This document shows, piece by piece, positions 6,086 through 64,000 of a stretch of 64,000 bases of DNA (its first letter is position 1; each line of letters begins with the position of its first letter). This DNA is from an uncultured Eubacteriales bacterium (lineage in GTDB: Bacteria > Bacillota > Clostridia > Christensenellales > Aristaeellaceae): NCBI GenBank assembly GCA_902765395.1, contig CACWZP010000002.1:1-64000 (forward strand). Reading direction: 5' to 3'. Under the pieces are notes generated by a model. The model made no database searches. It had not been told where the DNA came from and saw only the letters and a program-made list of their open reading frames with translations. The translations under genes and the position numbers were made by a program.

Positions 6086-6137
6086 TGGATAGAATCCGTC
6101 CATACTGAAAGTATCTCATGCTATGCAGGAGGCCGGT

Positions 6138-9100
6138 ATGGACCAGAACGACGGCAATTATCGATTGAATATAGAGGACGCGGGCGCGATCCGCCGCCTG
6201 GCCGAGGGCAACGCCCCGGCGGGCGAGGCGAGGCTTGGCCTGAATTGGCGCGAACACATGCGCCTGCGGGCGCTGCTGCGCCGGGTAGAGGCGTATTCCG
6301 CGCTGGAGGACGAGGCGCTCTCCCGGCTGAACCGGGAGGCGCGGCGGATCGCTGCCTGCGCCCGGGAGGCCTCCCGAAAGGGCGGCAGGCTGCCCGCATG
6401 GCGGGGCCAGCCGCGGGTGGAGGCAGTGCTGGATCGGCTGATCGCCGGGGGTGACGGGAGGCTGACGCAGGAGCGCCTGATGGGCGCCCTCTCGGCCCTG
6501 GACGCCCTCCAGCCGATGGCCATGGCGGAGCTCTGGGCCGCGCCGCAGGCGGCGGAGGCGGCCCTCTCCCGGGCGCTTCTGCGGGTGGCGGATTCCGTCG
6601 TCCGCCGGGGCGGGCTGTGTGCAAGGGCCGCACGCTGGGTCGGGCGGGGCGGCAGGGGCAGGATCGCGCTGGAGCCGGGCACTGTCGAATATGCGCTGAA
6701 GCGGGCGGCGGAGGACGGCGTGCCCGCGGCGCGGGCGCGGCTGGAAGCTGAGCTCGCCCGCCGGGGACTGTCCGCGGAGGACGCGGTGCGGCGGGCCCAG
6801 GCGGAGTCGGCCCGGGACACGCTGCGGCTGGAAAACCTGCTGGCGGCGCGGCGGATGGTGGAAGGACTGAACTGGCAGCGATGCTTTGAGGCGCTCTCCC
6901 GGGTGGACCAGGCGCTCAGGCGGGACCCCGCCGGGGTCTATCCCCGCATGGACGACGACTCCCGCGCCGCGCTGCGCGAGCAGCTGGCACACATCGCCCG
7001 GCGCGCAGGCCTGCCGGAGATCTCCGTGGCGCGGCACGCGCTGGACGCTGCGAGGGAGGAAGAGGGCATCCGGCGCAATGTCTGCTGGTGGCTGTACGAC
7101 GACGCGGGCCGAAGGGCGCTGCTCGGCCGGATGAACCGGGAAAAGGCGCGCCTCAGGCTGCTGGTGCCCGACCCGACGGGCCGCGGCGCTATGGCGCTGC
7201 ACATCGGCCTCGCCGCGCTGCTTGCAGCGGGGCTCGCTGCGCTGACCGGGCGGGCTTGGCTGGCCCTGCCCTGCGCATTGCTGGCCTGGACGTCGGCGGG
7301 GACGTTGATCGGCCGGTTCTACCCGAAGTTCACGCCCCCGGCACGGCTCTTGAAGCTGGAGCTGGACGCCATGCCGGAGGACATGCGCACGCTGGTGGTA
7401 ATGCCGGTGCTGCTGTCCTCGCCGAAGCGGGCGGAGGACGTGCTTTCCCAGCTGGAGGCGCTGGGCTTCCTGGAGGCGGACGAAAACATCGAATACCTGC
7501 TGCTGGGCGACTTTGCCGACGCGCCGCGCAGGGACATGCCCGGGGACGGGGCGATCCTGGAAGCCGCCCGGAAGGCCGTCGCGGCCATGAACGCGCGGGC
7601 GGGGCGGGAGAAGTATGCCTTTTTGCACCGAAACCGCGTGCCGCTGGCGGCGGACGGCGTCTGGATGGGCCGGGACCGCAAGCGCGGGGCGCTCACCGAC
7701 CTGAACCGGCTGCTGCTGGGCGAGGCCGGCGCGGAGGCGTCCTTTGGCGCGGAGGGCGCGGCCTGCGGGCGGCTGGCGGGCCGCTTCAGGTACGTGCTGA
7801 CCCTGGACGCGGACACCCGGCTGCTGCCCGACGCAGTGCGCCGGTTGATCGGCGTGATGGCCCACCCGCTGAACGGCCGCTTTGCCGTGCTGCAGCCGCG
7901 AATGGAGCCCCTGCCCGAAGCCTGCGTGAACGGCTTTGTGAAGCTGTTCTGCGGCTCCGGCGGGCTGAACGCCTATCCCGTGTCCGTCTCGAATCTGTGG
8001 CAGGATTTGACGGGCCGGGGCATCTACGCCGGCAAGGGCATCTACGACGTGGCGGCGTTCCACGGGCGACTGGACGGCGCGCTGCCGGAGGGCCGGGTGT
8101 TGAGCCACGACCTGATCGAAGGCGCGCTGGCGGGGGCGGGCTTTGCGGGGGACGTCGCCTTCTGCGACGGCTTTCCCACGTCGCTGGGCGCGTTCCTGCG
8201 CCGGCTGCACCGCTGGACGCGGGGCGACTGGCAGCTGCTGCCGCTGATGGGCCATCCGGGCCTGGCCGCCGCAGACCGATTCCGGATGCTGGACAACCTG
8301 ATCCGCTCGCTGCACGCCCCGGCGCTGCTCACGCTGCTCGTGGGCGCGGTCTGGGGCGGCAACGGCGGCGCGCTGCTTTCGGCGCTGCTGATGAACTACC
8401 TGGAGCCGCTTCTGAACCCCGGCGCGCGGGAGCGCCTGTGGCGCAGGGCCACGGCCCAACTGGCGGCGCTGCCCGCGCTGGCCTTGAACGCGCTGGACGC
8501 GATCGTCCGCACCCTCTGGCGGGTGTTTGTATCCGGCAGACACCTCCTGGAGTGGGTCACCGCCGCGGACGCCGAGGGCCGGGGCGGGGGAAGGGCGATC
8601 ACCTGGCCGGGGCGGATCGCGGCGCTGCTCATGCTGCCGGGGCTGCTGGTGCCCGGCTGGGCCATGGGCGCGCTGGCGCTGGAGGCGCTGTTCCTGGTCG
8701 GCCCCGGCTGGATCCGCGACATGGAGGATACGCCCATCGGCGCGGCTGAACCCCTCTCCGGCGACGACCGGCGGTATTTCACAGAGATCGCCGCGGACAC
8801 CTGGCGCTTCTTCGAGGCCTCGGTGCCCCTGGACGGCACCGGCCTGCCCCCGGACAACGTGCAGCTGGACCCGCCCGTGGGCGCGGCCCGGCGAACGTCG
8901 CCCACCAATATCGCGCTGTACCTGCTCGGCTGCCTCTCGGCGAGGCGGCTGGGCTTCCTTGGCGTGGAGGAAACGCGGATGCGCATCGGGCGGACGCTGG
9001 ATTCCCTGGAGCGCGTGGAGAAGTGGCGCGGACACCTGTACAACTGGGTGGACATCGACACCCTCGCGCCGCTGCGGCCCCGGTACGTGTCCTCGGTGGA

Positions 9101-22955: not shown

Positions 22956-24317
22956 CTACAGCCCAAGCGCCTTCATTACGTCTCCCAGCATGTACAGCGA
23001 GCCGCAGGCGCACACGGCGCCGTCCGGCCCGGCCATTTGTACGGCGGCTTCAACGCCCCGGGCCACGCTGTCGCAGGGCGTGGCGGGCAGGCCCAGCGTC
23101 CGCCCGATGAACGCGCTCAGCTCCGCCGCGGGCAGGGCCCGGGGGTTGTCCGGCGTCACGGTGACGAAGGCGCTGGCAAACGGCGCCAGGCGGCGGAACA
23201 TGTCGCCGTAGTCCTTGTCGGCCATGCAGCCGCACAGGAACACCAGCTTCCGCCCGGGCAGGTATTCCCGCAGCGCGGCCTCCAGCGCGGCGAGACACTG
23301 GGGGTTGTGGCCGCCGTCGGCGATGAACAGCGGGTCTCTTCCCAGAACCTGGAACCGCCCGGGCCAGGTGACCTGCGCCAGCCCTTCGCGCACGGCTGTC
23401 TCCGGGATGTCCCAGCCGCGCCCGCGCAGCGCGCCCACGGCGGTCAGGGCCGTGGCGGCGTTGTCCAGCTGATGCGCCCCCAGCAGCGGCAGCGACAGCC
23501 CCCTCAAATCGCCCCAGTCGAAGCGCTGGCCCTCCAGCGACGCGGACAGGGGCCGCAGGGCGGCAAAGTCCGCCACGGTCAGCGGCGCGGCCTTCTCCCG
23601 GCAGATCTCGGCGATCACCGCCTCCACCGACGGCTTTTGATGGTACAGCACGCAGGGCCGGCCGGGCTTCACGATGCCGGCCTTGGTGCGGGCGATGGCC
23701 TCCACCGTGTCACCCAGGAACTTCGTGTGGTCCAGACCGATGTTCGTTATCACGGCGCACTCGGTGTTTTCGATCACGTTGGTGGCGTCCCAGTCGCCAC
23801 CCATGCCCACCTCGCAGACCACGATGTCGCACCGCTCCCGCCGGAAGTATTCAAACCCCAGCGCAGTGATCAGCTCGAATTCCGACGGGTGCTCCCGCAT
23901 GGCGTCGGCGTGGGGGCGCACGTACTCCGTCAGCGCGCACAGCTTCTCATCGGAGATCTCCACCCCGTCCACCTGCATGCGCTCGTTGAAGCGGACGATG
24001 TAGGGCGAGGTGTAAAGCCCCGTGCGATAGCCGGCCCGGCGCAGGATCGCGGCCAGCATCGCCGCCGTGGAGCCCTTGCCGTTGGTGCCCGCGATGTGCA
24101 CGAATTTCAGCGCCTTCTCGGGGTTGCCCAGCCGGGAAAGCAGCTCCCGCTCCCGCTCGAGCCCCGGGATGGTGCCCAGCCAGGAGACGGAGTGGATGTA
24201 TTGCAACGCTTCGGAGATGTTCGTAGTGATCGCTTCCTTTTCAAGAATCAGAGAGTTCAGAGTTGAGAGTTCAGAGTGAAGATAATAGTGGTGCGTACAG
24301 CCGCGCGTCCCGGACAC
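22956..24317 (-). CDS. folC: Bifunctional folylpolyglutamate synthase / dihydrofolate synthase (start uncertain)
   Basis: Adds glutamate to folates. Conserved parts: IHSVSWLGTIPGLER, the P-loop IAGTNGKGSTAAM, TSPYIVRFNERMQVDG, EVGMGGDWDATNVI and GGHNPQCL. Family similarity begins near 24218 (ISEALQYIHS). The listed GTG 24317 adds 33 residues encoded by an interspersed repeat (24248-24356) and has no ribosome site. Closer in-frame choices are only CTG, ATC, ACG or a later TTG; AAAAGGAAG at about 24230 would favour a non-ATG start near 24220. The repeat probably replaced the original start region. Follows folT, which is under a THF riboswitch, so folate sensing likely extends to folC. Confidence 0.88.
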   Translation of the reverse strand: MSGTRGCTHHYYLHSELSTLNSLILEKEAITTNISEALQYIHSVSWLGTIPGLERERELLSRLGNPEKALKFVHIAGTNGKGSTAAMLAAILRRAGYRTGLYTSPYIVRFNERMQVDGVEISDEKLCALTEYVRPHADAMREHPSEFELITALGFEYFRRERCDIVVCEVGMGGDWDATNVIENTECAVITNIGLDHTKFLGDTVEAIARTKAGIVKPGRPCVLYHQKPSVEAVIAEICREKAAPLTVADFAALRPLSASLEGQRFDWGDLRGLSLPLLGAHQLDNAATALTAVGALRGRGWDIPETAVREGLAQVTWPGRFQVLGRDPLFIADGGHNPQCLAALEAALREYLPGRKLVFLCGCMADKDYGDMFRRLAPFASAFVTVTPDNPRALPAAELSAFIGRTLGLPATPCDSVARGVEAAVQMAGPDGAVCACGSLYMLGDVMKALGL

Positions 24318-24356
24318 TTCAATCTAAACTCTAAACTCTTAACTCTCAACTCTGAT
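24248..24356. repeat. Inverted repeat, family D copy 1, spanning the folT-folC junction
   Basis: AGAGTTCAGAGTTGAGAGTT-type motif at 24248-24277 is mirrored by AACTCTTAACTCTCAACTCTGA at 24335-24356. A single-arm relative at 57603-57652 shares about 48 aligned bases (TCCCGG.CACTTC.ATCT.AACTCT...). It supplies the folT stop codon and reaches the folC 5' end. Confidence 0.8.
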
Positions 24357-24870
24357 ATATTCCCAAGTGCTCAAACACCTTCGACCGGAACAGGCCATAG
24401 ACCACCGCGGCGTTGACTGCGGAGGTGATGGCGAACTGCACGGCCCGTGAGCCCAGGAACCAGACGAAGCTGTGGGTGCCGTAGAAGAAGGCCAGCCACC
24501 AGCTCTGCCACAGCACGTGGCCCAGCACCACGGCGGGCAGGAAGGAGAGCAGTATGCGCAGGTAATCGGGCTTTTTCAGCACGCGGGAGCGCATCAGCCC
24601 CGCGCATACGCCGATCAGCACCGGCGGCAGGGCGAACACCGGGTTATAGCCGTAGCCGGAGAACAGGCAGCCCACGGCGTCGCCCACCAGGCCCACGCAG
24701 CCGCCGGCCAGCGGCCCGAACAGCAGCCCGGCCACGATGATGGGCACGGCCTCGATGGAAAAGCGCGTGGTGGGGTTGGGCATGGGAACGATGAAGCGGG
24801 CCAGCACCACCTCGATGGCCGAGAGCAGCGCCAGCGTGACCAGGGTTTTGGTATTCAGGCGATTGGACAT
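24346..24870 (-). CDS. folT: Folate ECF transporter, substrate-binding (S) component
   Basis: 174 residues from ATG 24870. Six hydrophobic segments. MNPTTRFSIEAVPIIVAGLLFGPL-like text (here MPNPTTRFSIEAVPIIVAGL), GGCVGLVGDAVGCLF and SGYGYNPVFALPPVLIG are typical of FolT. Works with the shared EcfA1/A2/T module, which is not in this window. Expression is read as controlled by the THF riboswitch at 24937-25047 with the SD-sequestering hairpin next to the ATG. The last codons CAG AGT TGA come from the family D repeat, so the true ancestral C-terminus may have differed. Confidence 0.9.
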   Translation of the reverse strand: MSNRLNTKTLVTLALLSAIEVVLARFIVPMPNPTTRFSIEAVPIIVAGLLFGPLAGGCVGLVGDAVGCLFSGYGYNPVFALPPVLIGVCAGLMRSRVLKKPDYLRILLSFLPAVVLGHVLWQSWWLAFFYGTHSFVWFLGSRAVQFAITSAVNAAVVYGLFRSKVFEHLGIYQS

Positions 24871-24893
24871 AAAAAATCCTCCGTTTCGGAGGA
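24871..24893 (-). promoter_or_regulatory. Expression platform hairpin of the folT riboswitch
   Basis: RNA sense: TCCTCCG (24893-24887), AAA, CGGAGGA (24883-24877), TTTTTT (24876-24871), ATG. The 3' arm contains the GGAGG ribosome site, and the U6 gives it terminator shape as well. Confidence 0.75.
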
Positions 24894-24936
24894 GGTTGGA
24901 CGTGGGTCTCGCTGATTGGACATAGTCGTACCCGCG

Positions 24937-25047
24937 CGACGGTTCAGCGGATGCGAAATGGCACCGCGGGGCCGCTTCCGGCTCCTTCGCCCGGCGGCAA
25001 CCTCCCATCCGCCGGTACTTGACGCGCCATTCCTACTCATTCCATCG
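24937..25047 (-). ncRNA. Tetrahydrofolate (THF) riboswitch
   Basis: In RNA sense the leader shows the conserved blocks of the THF-I aptamer in order: GAGTAGG, GGCGCGTCAAGTA, GGATGGGA, GGTTGCCGCC, GGCGAA, GCGGTGCCATTTC and GCATCCGCTG. A P1 helix can form between CGATGG (25047-25042) and CCGTCG (24942-24937) with an AA/AA internal loop. It lies just upstream of folT, the commonest THF riboswitch target. Sequence and context support it strongly; binding is inferred. Confidence 0.88.
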
Positions 25048-61537: not shown

Positions 61538-61566
61538 TTGCGATATGCAGGGCAAAAGTTTATAAT
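61538..61566 (+). promoter_or_regulatory. Promoter of the T-box transcript
   Basis: TTGCGA (61538-61543), 17-nt spacer, TATAAT (61561-61566). Confidence 0.75.
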
Positions 61567-61576
61567 TCTATTAACG

Positions 61577-61836
61577 TGATGAAGGAGAGAAGTAAGCCCT
61601 TCCCAGCGCATGAAGAGAGCTGCCGGTCGGTGCGAGGCGGTTGCGCGGTTTGGCTGAATACACTTTGGAGCGGCGCACCGAAAGCCGGGCATGGCGAGTA
61701 GGCCGCGACGGGCGCGCCCGATACAGCGCGGGGGACACTGTCCCGCGAAGGGCGCCTGCCGCGAGGCGGCGTCAAATAGAGGTGGTACCACGGGTTTTCA
61801 TCCCGTCCTCTGCTCTTGGCAGGGGACGGGATTTTT
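61577..61836 (+). ncRNA. T-box leader, specifier UAC (tyrosine)
   Basis: The gap 61506-61895 is filled by this leader. Stem I landmarks appear in order: GAGAGAAGTAA (AGTA S-turn), AGAGAGC, CGGTGCGAGGCGG (distal loop GGTGxGA), then GGCTGAATACACTTTGGAGC with the specifier TAC at 61659-61661. The T-box core GGTGGTACCACGGG is at 61781-61794; its UGGU would pair with an ACCA tRNA end, as expected for tRNA-Tyr. The terminator (61800-61813 with 61819-61832, U5) follows. Regulation by uncharged tRNA-Tyr is inferred from these parts. Confidence 0.9.
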
Positions 61837-61895
61837 GCGACCGGCGGCGCTGCCGGCAAACGAGACATTACAAACACGACTGGAGGCCGAATGAC

Positions 61896-63530
61896 ATGCC
61901 AATTACCGAGATCCTTGAAAAGAACGCCAGAAAGTACGGCTCTGAGATTGCGCTGGTGGAGATCAACCCCGAAGTGCGCGAGGAGCGCCGGGTCACCTGG
62001 AAGGAGTACGAGCTGATCGAGCGCGGCGCTTCCGAGGAGTTCCGCCGGGAGATCACCTGGAGTGTGTTCGACGAGAAGGCGAACCGCTGCGCCAACCTGC
62101 TGATGAGCCGCGGCATCAAGAAGGGCGACAAGGTGGCCATCCTGCTGATGAACTGCCTGGAGTGGCTGCCGCTGTACTTCGGCATCCTCAAGACCGGTGC
62201 CCTGGTGGTGCCCATGAACTACCGCTATTCCGCCGACGAGATCCAGTACTGCGCCGACCTGGCGGACGTGGACGCCATGTTCTTCGGGCCGGAGTTCATC
62301 GGCCGCGTGGAGGAGAGCATCGACAAGATGCCCCGGGTGAAGCTGCTGTTCTACGTGGGCGACAATTGCCCGACCTTTGCCGAGAACTACCTGCACCTGG
62401 CGGCCAACCAGTCCAGTGCCGCCCCCAACATCGACCTGGAGGACGAGGACGACGCGGCCATCTACTTCTCCTCGGGCACCACGGGCTTCCCCAAGGCCAT
62501 CCTGCACAACCACGAGAGCCTGATGCACGCCTGCAAGACCGAGCAGAAGCACCATGGCCAGACCCACAAGGACGTGTTCCTGTGCATCCCGCCGCTGTAT
62601 CACACCGGCGCGAAGATGCACTGGTTTGGCTCGTTCCTGGTGGGCGGCAGGGCCGTGCTGCTGAAGGGCGTGAAGCCCCTGACCATCATCAAGACCGCCG
62701 CCGAGGAGCATTGCAGCATCGTGTGGCTGCTGGTGCCCTGGGCCCAGGACATCCTGGACGCCATCGACCGCGGCGAGATCGACCTGAACCAGTACGACCT
62801 GTCCGCCTGGCGGCTGATGCACATCGGCGCGCAGCCCGTGCCCCGCAGCCTGATCAAGCGCTGGAAGGAGAAGTTCCCGAACCACCAGTACGACACCAAC
62901 TACGGCCTCAGCGAATCCATCGGCCCCGGCTGCGTGCATCTGGGCGTGGACAACATCGACAAGGTGGGCGCCATCGGCATCCCCGGCTATGGCTGGCAGG
63001 CGCGCATCATCGACGAGCAGGGCAACGACGTGCCCCAGGGCCAGGTGGGTGAGCTGGCCGTGAAGGGCCCCGGCGTGATGACCTGCTACTACAAGGACCC
63101 CAAGGCCACCGCCGAGGTGCTGCACGACGACTGGCTCTGGACCGGCGACATGGCCATGCGGGACGAGGAGGGCTTCATCTACCTGGTGGACCGCAAGAAG
63201 GACGTCATCATCACCGGCGGCGAGAACCTGTACCCGGTGCAGATCGAGGACTTCCTCCGCTCCCACAACGACATCAAGGATGTGGCCGTCATCGGCTTGC
63301 CGCACCCGCGCCTGGGCGAGATCGCCGCGGCCATCATCGAACTGAAGCCCGGCTCCACCACCACCGAGGAGGACATCGACAGGTTCTGCCAGGCGCTGCC
63401 CCGCTACAAGCGGCCCCGGAAGATCATCTTCGCCGACGTGCCGCGCAACCCCACCGGCAAGATCGAAAAGCCCAAGCTGCGCGAGATCTACGGCGCGAAG
63501 CAGCTGGTGGCCGAGCAGGTGGAGAGCTGA
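61896..63530 (+). CDS. AMP-dependent acyl-CoA ligase (FadD-like), T-box controlled
   Basis: 544 residues from ATG 61896, TGGAGG 9 nt upstream; ATG 61891 is out of frame. ANL-superfamily: phosphate loop SSGTTGFPKA (~197-206), YGLSES, DGWLWTGDM-like DDWLWTGDMAM, hinge VDRKKDVIITGGENLYPVQIED, catalytic Lys in PRNPTGKIEKPK. Makes acyl- or aryl-AMP then the CoA thioester. Substrate is not readable; being placed with paaK behind a Tyr-type T-box favours an aryl acid such as (4-hydroxy)phenylacetate or a related keto-acid product. Confidence 0.9.
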   Translation: MPITEILEKNARKYGSEIALVEINPEVREERRVTWKEYELIERGASEEFRREITWSVFDEKANRCANLLMSRGIKKGDKVAILLMNCLEWLPLYFGILKTGALVVPMNYRYSADEIQYCADLADVDAMFFGPEFIGRVEESIDKMPRVKLLFYVGDNCPTFAENYLHLAANQSSAAPNIDLEDEDDAAIYFSSGTTGFPKAILHNHESLMHACKTEQKHHGQTHKDVFLCIPPLYHTGAKMHWFGSFLVGGRAVLLKGVKPLTIIKTAAEEHCSIVWLLVPWAQDILDAIDRGEIDLNQYDLSAWRLMHIGAQPVPRSLIKRWKEKFPNHQYDTNYGLSESIGPGCVHLGVDNIDKVGAIGIPGYGWQARIIDEQGNDVPQGQVGELAVKGPGVMTCYYKDPKATAEVLHDDWLWTGDMAMRDEEGFIYLVDRKKDVIITGGENLYPVQIEDFLRSHNDIKDVAVIGLPHPRLGEIAAAIIELKPGSTTTEEDIDRFCQALPRYKRPRKIIFADVPRNPTGKIEKPKLREIYGAKQLVAEQVES

Positions 63531-63565
63531 ACAACAGACGACGCAAAACGAAAGGGATCAATCAC

Positions 63566-64000
63566 ATGAGCCAATCTGAACGCAGAATCTTCAATCCCGC
63601 CATGGAATGCATCGACCGCGAGCAGCTGCGCAAGCTGCAGGGCGAGCGACTGGTGGAGACCGTAAAGCGGGAATACGAGAACGTGCCGATGTACCGCGCG
63701 CGCATGGATGCCGCCGGCATCAAGCCCGAGGACATCCGCGGGCTGGACGACCTGAAGTACCTGCCCTTCACGGAAAAGACCGACCTGAGGGACTACTATC
63801 CCTTCGGGCTGCTGGCCTCCCCGAAGAAGGACATCATTCGCATCCAGGGCTCTTCCGGCACCACCGGCAAGCCCATTGTGTCCGGCTATACCCGGAACGA
63901 CATCGCCGTCTGGAGCGAGATGATGGCCCGCACGCTCACCGCCGCGGGCGCTACCTGCGAGGACGTGGTGCAGGTCACCTATGGCCTGGGCCTGTTCACC
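63566..64000 (+). CDS. paaK: Phenylacetate-CoA ligase, N-terminal part (cut at window end)
   Basis: First 145 residues, running off the right edge. NPAMECIDREQLRKLQGERLVETVKREYENVPMYRARMDAAGI and LPFTEKTDLRDYYPFGLLASPKKDIIRIQGSSGTTGKPIVSGYT are the standard PaaK start. Activates phenylacetate (or hydroxylated forms) to the CoA ester. Starts 35 nt after the acyl-CoA ligase and shares the T-box. GAAAGGGA precedes the ATG. Confidence 0.92.
   Translation, partial: MSQSERRIFNPAMECIDREQLRKLQGERLVETVKREYENVPMYRARMDAAGIKPEDIRGLDDLKYLPFTEKTDLRDYYPFGLLASPKKDIIRIQGSSGTTGKPIVSGYTRNDIAVWSEMMARTLTAAGATCEDVVQVTYGLGLFT

Follow-up and report, generated by a model that had tools for sequence, protein, structure and literature searches.

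A tyrosine T-box leader before two acyl-CoA ligase genes suggests regulated salvage of aryl acids in a clostridial genome

T-box leaders switch genes on when the cognate tRNA is uncharged. Tyrosine-class members of this RNA family (RF00230) precede tyrS or other tyrosine-related genes, and here we examine a leader of this class in an uncultured Eubacteriales bacterium (GCA_902765395.1; a 3.38 Mb genome in 53 contigs, 96% complete), located near the end of a stretch of 64,000 nucleotides, hereafter the window, that comprises positions 1-64000 of contig C2 (CACWZP010000002.1). The leader shares with the described class the T-box elements, the UAC specifier and a terminator/antiterminator pair; it is followed, however, by genes for acyl-CoA ligases that probably belong to a route of reductive carboxylation, not by a synthetase, an amino acid importer or a shikimate gene. 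Judging from gene content and regulatory sign, we consider it likely that uncharged tRNA switches on a route in which acids from outside the cell are reductively carboxylated on the way to the amino acid that is lacking, which at this locus would be tyrosine.

The chemistry of such a route has precedents. Methanococcus maripaludis converts aryl acids into aromatic amino acids by a second route via indolepyruvate oxidoreductase (IOR) (Porat et al. as cited in PMC4162585; the link to IOR also in PMC3462420). As far as these accounts describe it, that route, like the one proposed here, starts from aryl acids and passes through indolepyruvate oxidoreductase; M. maripaludis, however, is an archaeon, whereas the present system places AMP-forming ligases, an ACT gene and a symporter under T-box control. 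In Bacteroides, the position of an AMP-forming arylacetate-CoA ligase beside IOR has been argued to indicate biosynthesis (PMC13285125), and the pairing of ligase and IOR is therefore proposed to be biosynthetic in both cases; the available text of that paper does not mention a T-box, which in the present case supplies the sign of regulation independently. In rumen cultures branched acids give rise to branched-chain amino acids, and phenylacetate to phenylalanine, which is the same conversion of acid to amino acid; this is mixed-culture physiology, and genes and their control do not figure in the discussion passages on it (PMC7356843). T-boxes, PaaK, IOR and acid-to-amino-acid conversions are all already known. 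In a limited literature search, which did not extend to older T-box surveys, no account of T-box control over these ligases was found.

The leader and the codon in its specifier loop

The earlier note on this DNA, made from the letters of the window alone, had described a complete tyrosine T-box leader in front of two CoA ligases. The covariance model bore out this description: the match spans the whole of RF00230 (model positions 1-219), its score lies above the curated gathering score of 93 bits, and the listed motifs and the terminator are all present (Table 1). UGGU within the T-box sequence corresponds to the UGGN bulge of the antiterminator, the fold of which reached -10.6 kcal/mol (z -1.9), with 8 of 200 shuffles equal or better. 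A competing terminator, as described for the family, follows; none of 200 shuffles folded as well, and the hairpin was absent from the listing of a simple terminator scan. We predict that the leader is a transcription-terminating tyrosine T-box riboswitch relieved by tRNA-dependent antitermination, and we hold this to be probable jointly with the route as a whole.

Table 1 Features of the leader and of the genes that follow it, in contig and window numbering
Feature	Position	Strand	Basis
Promoter-like TTGCGA-17-TATAAT	61538..61566	+	10/12 matches; shuffles of the region average 0.5
T-box leader RF00230, Stem I to antiterminator	61570..61813	+	100.5 bits, E 5.7e-21
AGTA	from 61591	+	motif search of leader
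AGAGAG	from 61614	+	motif search of leader
GGTGCGAGG	61629-61637	+	motif search of leader
GAA	from 61656	+	directly 5' of specifier
Specifier triplet UAC (Tyr) in specifier loop	61659..61661	+	covariance-model columns; position after GAA
T-box sequence AGGUGGUACCACGGG of antiterminator (AGGTGGTACCACGGG in motif list)	61780..61794	+	motif search
Intrinsic terminator, alternative to antiterminator	61802..61836	+	fold -27.9 kcal/mol, z -8.3
AMP-forming acyl-CoA ligase (LIG), 544 aa, PF00501 + PF13193	61896..63530	+	domain search
PaaK-type arylacetate-CoA ligase, 439 aa, PF00501 + PF14535	63566..64000 in window, ends at contig position 64885	+	domain search
ACT-pair gene (PF19571)	65007-65447 (past window)		domain search; follows paaK

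The triplet in the specifier loop reads UAC by the columns of the covariance model and by a fixed-spacing rule alike, in agreement with the codon assigned in the earlier note. This register is internally controlled, because leaders of synthetase genes in the same genome read the expected triplets in those columns, namely UUC (pheS), GUC (valS), AUG (metG), CUC (leuS) and UAC (an aminotransferase-tyrS operon); pheS, valS, metG, leuS and tyrS were confirmed or best matched by NCBIfam, valS being a partial gene below the cut-off. For the ileS leader, which contains gaps, and the alaS leader, which contains inserts and whose gene was named by eye, the triplet was picked from these columns manually. 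GAC (Asp) stands there in the leader of a gene identified by eye as hisS, and the leader of a thrS gene (L016), likewise identified by eye, fell below the alignment threshold. The position of the window triplet also agrees with the priority rule of TBDB, which in the available text places the specifier at positions 2-4 before the helix (PMC7778990), and the triplet is cognate to the amino acid with which the genes are putatively tied.

A shifted register (ACA/ACG) would make the operon answer threonine. The fixed-spacing rule, a stricter replacement for a first regular expression that was ambiguous, returned TAC in 19/19 leaders with a T-box that precede the first ligase of the operon (LIG) in the same genus, and ATC in 23/23 same-genus leaders of a cupin-containing ligase described below. 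Applied to 21 leaders with a T-box that precede a sodium:solute symporter (SSS) gene, it returned ACA 16 times, ACC four times and TTA once; most SSS leaders thus favour threonine by this rule, and in genome G412 the covariance model also puts ACC in the specifier columns. Counted from the helix by eye, positions 2-4 are nevertheless UAC in the SSS leaders and in G412, where a C follows, as the TBDB rule would have it (PMC7778990, available text). With the same columns reading UAC before aminotransferase-tyrS, and with UAC in the window leader by both methods and in every same-genus LIG leader, a response to threonine is highly improbable. We read the SSS leaders as UAC, relying on the covariance model in the case of L004 and on the helix position by eye in the others. 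Results of an automatic helix-based caller were not used: although TAC came out for tyrS and SSS and CTC for leuS, its triplets for the window leader and several others were wrong or doubtful.

The ligase operon and its counterparts in relatives

Beyond the window, the two ligase genes are followed by the ACT-pair gene and then by spo0A. In the PaaK-type ligase, PF00501 and PF14535 exceed their cut-offs, and the solved phenylacetate-CoA ligases 2y27, 2y4o and 4r1l are matched at E 1.8e-113 or lower. The earlier note had looked to the following genes for iorA, iorB and aminotransferases. This part did not hold in the window genome: within C2:61001-100000 no relative of its own iorA, iorB or tyrS-linked aminotransferase was found, the search for aminotransferases in this stretch being confined to that one family, and a placement of iorAB downstream of the operon was rejected on these grounds. 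It did hold in relatives, whose T-box operons contain these genes.

Several of these operons join the ligase to iorA and iorB behind one T-box. Genome G030 has the order T-box-LIG-iorA-iorB-aminotransferase, G028 has T-box-MFS-LIG-iorA-iorB, and G410 has T-box-LIG-iorA-iorB-paaK-ACT; T-box-SSS-LIG-iorA-iorB-paaK-ACT is found in G412, the specifier register of which is less certain. The shorter order T-box-LIG-iorA-iorB occurs in G075, G209 and G116, and locus L118 reads T-box-LIG-iorA up to a contig end. In G028, G030, G410, G075, G209 and G116, as well as in L070 and L118, the T-box before LIG carries UAC. The arrangement of T-box, ligase and IOR recurs across several families, and the symporter, ligase, paaK and ACT gene of the window genome, as well as a 40% identical aminotransferase, are each found joined to iorAB in some relative. 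Salvage of aryl acids into aromatic amino acids, as the earlier note had suggested, is supported, since relatives appear to carry the route under one tyrosine T-box.

To count T-boxes we used a pattern scan, which may miss divergent members, so that all presence counts are lower bounds. Among same-genus LIG loci, the window's own included, the pattern marks a T-box in 19/25, with UAC as the specifier of every one. Four loci of sister species (L049, L052, L055 and L059) have lost Stem I and kept the terminator region, and represent natural T-box remnants. A sub-threshold match to the glycine-GGAnGA riboswitch (57.8 bits against a gathering score of 110) lies divergent from the tyrosine T-box in G006 (L051, 846-1023, minus strand). 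From a wider genome scan the best 80 of 588 were taken as named loci, many of them cut by contig ends; iorA occurs in 17 of these 80, paaK in nine and a member of the symporter family in 16, with an identity of at least 65% in 14 of the 16. A ligase-proximal T-box was found by pattern in five of the 80 (L067, L068, L070, L097 and L118). A match at L069 (Asn AAC by model) and two at L094, one of them Leu CUC and the other weaker, lie kilobases from the ligase and were not counted, nor was that at L099, which rests on the pattern and has no AGAGA upstream. In a class-wide sample LIG is present in 142/391 genomes, and among its 29 best-scoring LIG loci (own excluded; not a random sample), four have an upstream T-box, all four at 107 bits or more and with UAC.

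Gene families co-occur in the same sense. LIG was found in 34 of 60 genomes searched, the window genome among them, and every one of the 34 has IorA. Of the 60, 45 have PaaK together with IorA and 12 have neither; IorA alone occurs in two and PaaK alone in one, with completeness values of 72, 83 and 51% for these discordant three. When one genome was taken from each of 24 families, 13 had both, 10 neither and one PaaK only (Fisher p 5.6e-6, shared ancestry uncorrected). These data bear on the alternative that the aryl-CoA feeds some other product needed under tyrosine shortage, for example a lipid, a peptide or a natural product. The operon of the window genome contains neither an IOR gene nor a relative of the tyrS-linked aminotransferase, and no LIG family match shown reaches a curated cut-off, both of which would suit such a product; the presence of iorAB, and once of an aminotransferase, within the same T-box operon in relatives, together with IorA in all 34 LIG genomes, makes it quite improbable.

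The tyrosine regulon and the direction of the proposed route

The window genome contains 16 T-boxes, of which four exceed the Rfam cut-off and 15 could be aligned. Three read UAC, and these precede the ligase operon, the aminotransferase-tyrS operon and an SSS symporter gene. The T-box of the symporter is conserved in 21/23 same-genus loci, one of the two misses beginning at a contig end, and relatives of the symporter adjoin LIG or iorA in other genomes. The genes iorA and iorB lie together on contig C16 (TIGR03336, 683.8 bits against a cut-off of 650.9). The possibility that iorAB has a T-box of its own was rejected, as C16 has no T-box match and a pattern scan of 30 iorA loci, out to about 1.5 kb, returned none.

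In the mechanism that we propose, uncharged tRNA-Tyr would pair with UAC and with the T-box bulge, and formation of the antiterminator would let transcription proceed into LIG, paaK and the ACT-pair gene. LIG and PaaK would convert an imported arylacetate, most likely 4-hydroxyphenylacetate and perhaps also phenylacetate, into its CoA thioester; IorAB, using reduced ferredoxin, would add CO2 to the aryl-CoA, and the resulting arylpyruvate would be turned into tyrosine by an aminotransferase. The regulon of the window genome would then be split over three leaders, with the ligases, the symporter as a likely importer and aminotransferase-tyrS each under its own T-box, iorAB transcribed separately, and a putative role for the ACT protein. 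We favour this order of steps, from acid through acyl-CoA and 2-oxoacid to amino acid, because the sign of the T-box, the AMP-forming ligases and the neighbouring oxidoreductases and aminotransferases all point in this direction.

The opposite direction deserves consideration. PaaK is classically an enzyme of degradation, and the ligases of a catabolic operon could trap or degrade arylacetates or fermentation products, the T-box being incidental or taken over from an adjacent gene. The available text of PMC13285125 describes 2-oxoacid:ferredoxin oxidoreductases working in the oxidative direction, and many LIG loci of other lineages have no T-box by pattern. A T-box that switches genes on at tyrosine shortage would, however, have the wrong sign for disposal, and the order T-box-ligase-IOR was found repeatedly, in several families. 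Moreover, many IOR/VOR-type clusters lie near phosphate acyltransferase and acyl kinase or near ADP-forming ligases, according to the same text (PMC13285125), whereas the ligases here are AMP-forming members of PF00501. Aerobic degradation of the paa type can be ruled out by the PaaA/PaaC oxygenase family (PF05138), which has no match in the window genome, 96% complete as it is, and matches 4/14 control genomes. The purely degradative operon that would have spoken against the earlier note was thus not seen, and we regard a catabolic role as unlikely.

Several observations weigh against the biosynthetic route nonetheless. The PaaK-type ligase scores 542.7 bits, below the TIGR02155 equivalog cut-off of 646.3, which none of the 60 genomes reaches, and LIG reaches no cut-off among its 25 best NCBIfam matches of 108; because neither attains a curated family cut-off, the substrates of both ligases are unproven. 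The iorAB genes of the window genome are unlinked to the ligase operon, C16 carries no T-box match, and the direction of IOR flux is not readable from sequence. In six of the 25 same-genus loci the T-box before LIG has been lost or cut short, two of them (L039 and L057) showing no trace of it and the four of sister species keeping remnants such as the terminator. No T-box match was found at the LIG loci of G031, G033 and G050, none by pattern at LIG-iorA-iorB-paaK-ACT in G043 and G360 or at LIG-SSS-iorA-iorB-paaK-ACT in G046, and none by pattern within 1.5 kb at 25 of the 29 class-sample loci. Finally, salvage would not be obligatory, because the genome keeps a de novo tyrosine route: a cluster on contig C6 includes DAHP synthase, tyrA (PF02153), aroB, aroA and chorismate synthase (PF01264), all over cut-off, with pheA- and aroE-like genes below cut-off and no T-box match. 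A tyrosine auxotroph that depends on salvage is ruled out by tyrA and the other aromatic genes.

For the preferred route, in which acids are built up into tyrosine, the T-box offers the sign of regulation without an assay, as the ligases would be on when the amino acid is short. Control of this kind argues that clusters of iorAB and paaK are biosynthetic in these lineages.

Isoleucine, valine and leucine T-boxes before further ligases

The tyrosine leader has parallels that read other codons. On contig C26 of the window genome, a T-box (L014, C26:23874-24126) precedes a gene for a cupin/AMP-ligase near an operon of a VorB-type oxidoreductase (PRK07119, 470.4 bits, above 399), and leaders of this type carry AUC (Ile) in 23/23 same-genus loci fetched. 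The ligase, as represented by the copy in G013, contains a weak helix-turn-helix domain for which the models are below cut-off, and its best NCBIfam match is the MbcS acyl-CoA synthetase (NF047394), at 422.5 bits below the cut-off of 850; it differs from MbcS in this lower score, in its fusion to a cupin and the weak helix-turn-helix domain, and in standing under isoleucine or valine T-boxes. The cupin-ligase gene of the window genome is frame-interrupted (L019, about 6092-7252 onward), and a relative in G018 that is 98% identical is uninterrupted at 816 aa; either an assembly error or a recent loss is possible.

At the threshold used, the cupin-ligase family occurs in 193/391 genomes of the class-wide sample. 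Of its 30 best-scoring loci, again not a random sample, 29 have a T-box; under the strict rule 14 of these give ATC and 13 give GTA, and the other two (L254 and L276), for which it gave ATT and TAG, were read as ATC by eye. Such isoleucine and valine loci (L180-L204; L251-L280; L244, L245, L314) are spread over many families of Clostridia. G043, G044, G046 and G050 have two neighbouring cupin-ligase paralogues per locus. In G046, G044 and G233, an isoleucine T-box with its ligase and a valine T-box with its ligase stand in tandem before VOR-type oxidoreductase genes, with a branched-chain aminotransferase over cut-off in the G046 and G233 clusters. The same three loci have a leucine (CUC) T-box before genes that by eye resemble a pair in the window genome, where a leucine T-box (CUC; L001/L024, C9:85390-85628) precedes a LeuA-like gene and a gene whose 831 aa product joins a xylose-isomerase-like TIM barrel to an AMP-forming ligase (Pfam).

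From the gene content of these T-box clusters, the amino acid of the specifier tracks the class of oxidoreductase, tyrosine going with IOR and the branched-chain amino acids with VOR. It seems fairly likely, then, that a general clostridial T-box regulon exists, in which tRNAs for tyrosine, isoleucine, valine and probably leucine each control a dedicated AMP-forming ligase that feeds an IOR/VOR-type oxidoreductase and a transaminase, so that the missing amino acid is rebuilt from an acid excreted by neighbours. If so, the specifier would predict the substrate of each otherwise unassigned ligase. The tyrosine switch and the isoleucine and valine switches in relatives point to amino acid recycling that may have been overlooked in gut and rumen bacteria.

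Elsewhere in the window, a THF riboswitch (RF01831, 55.9 bits) lies on the minus strand at 24946-25042. Downstream of it are a gene for a small membrane protein that by eye resembles a folate transporter (24346-25008) and, likewise by eye, a folC-like gene (22956-24317).

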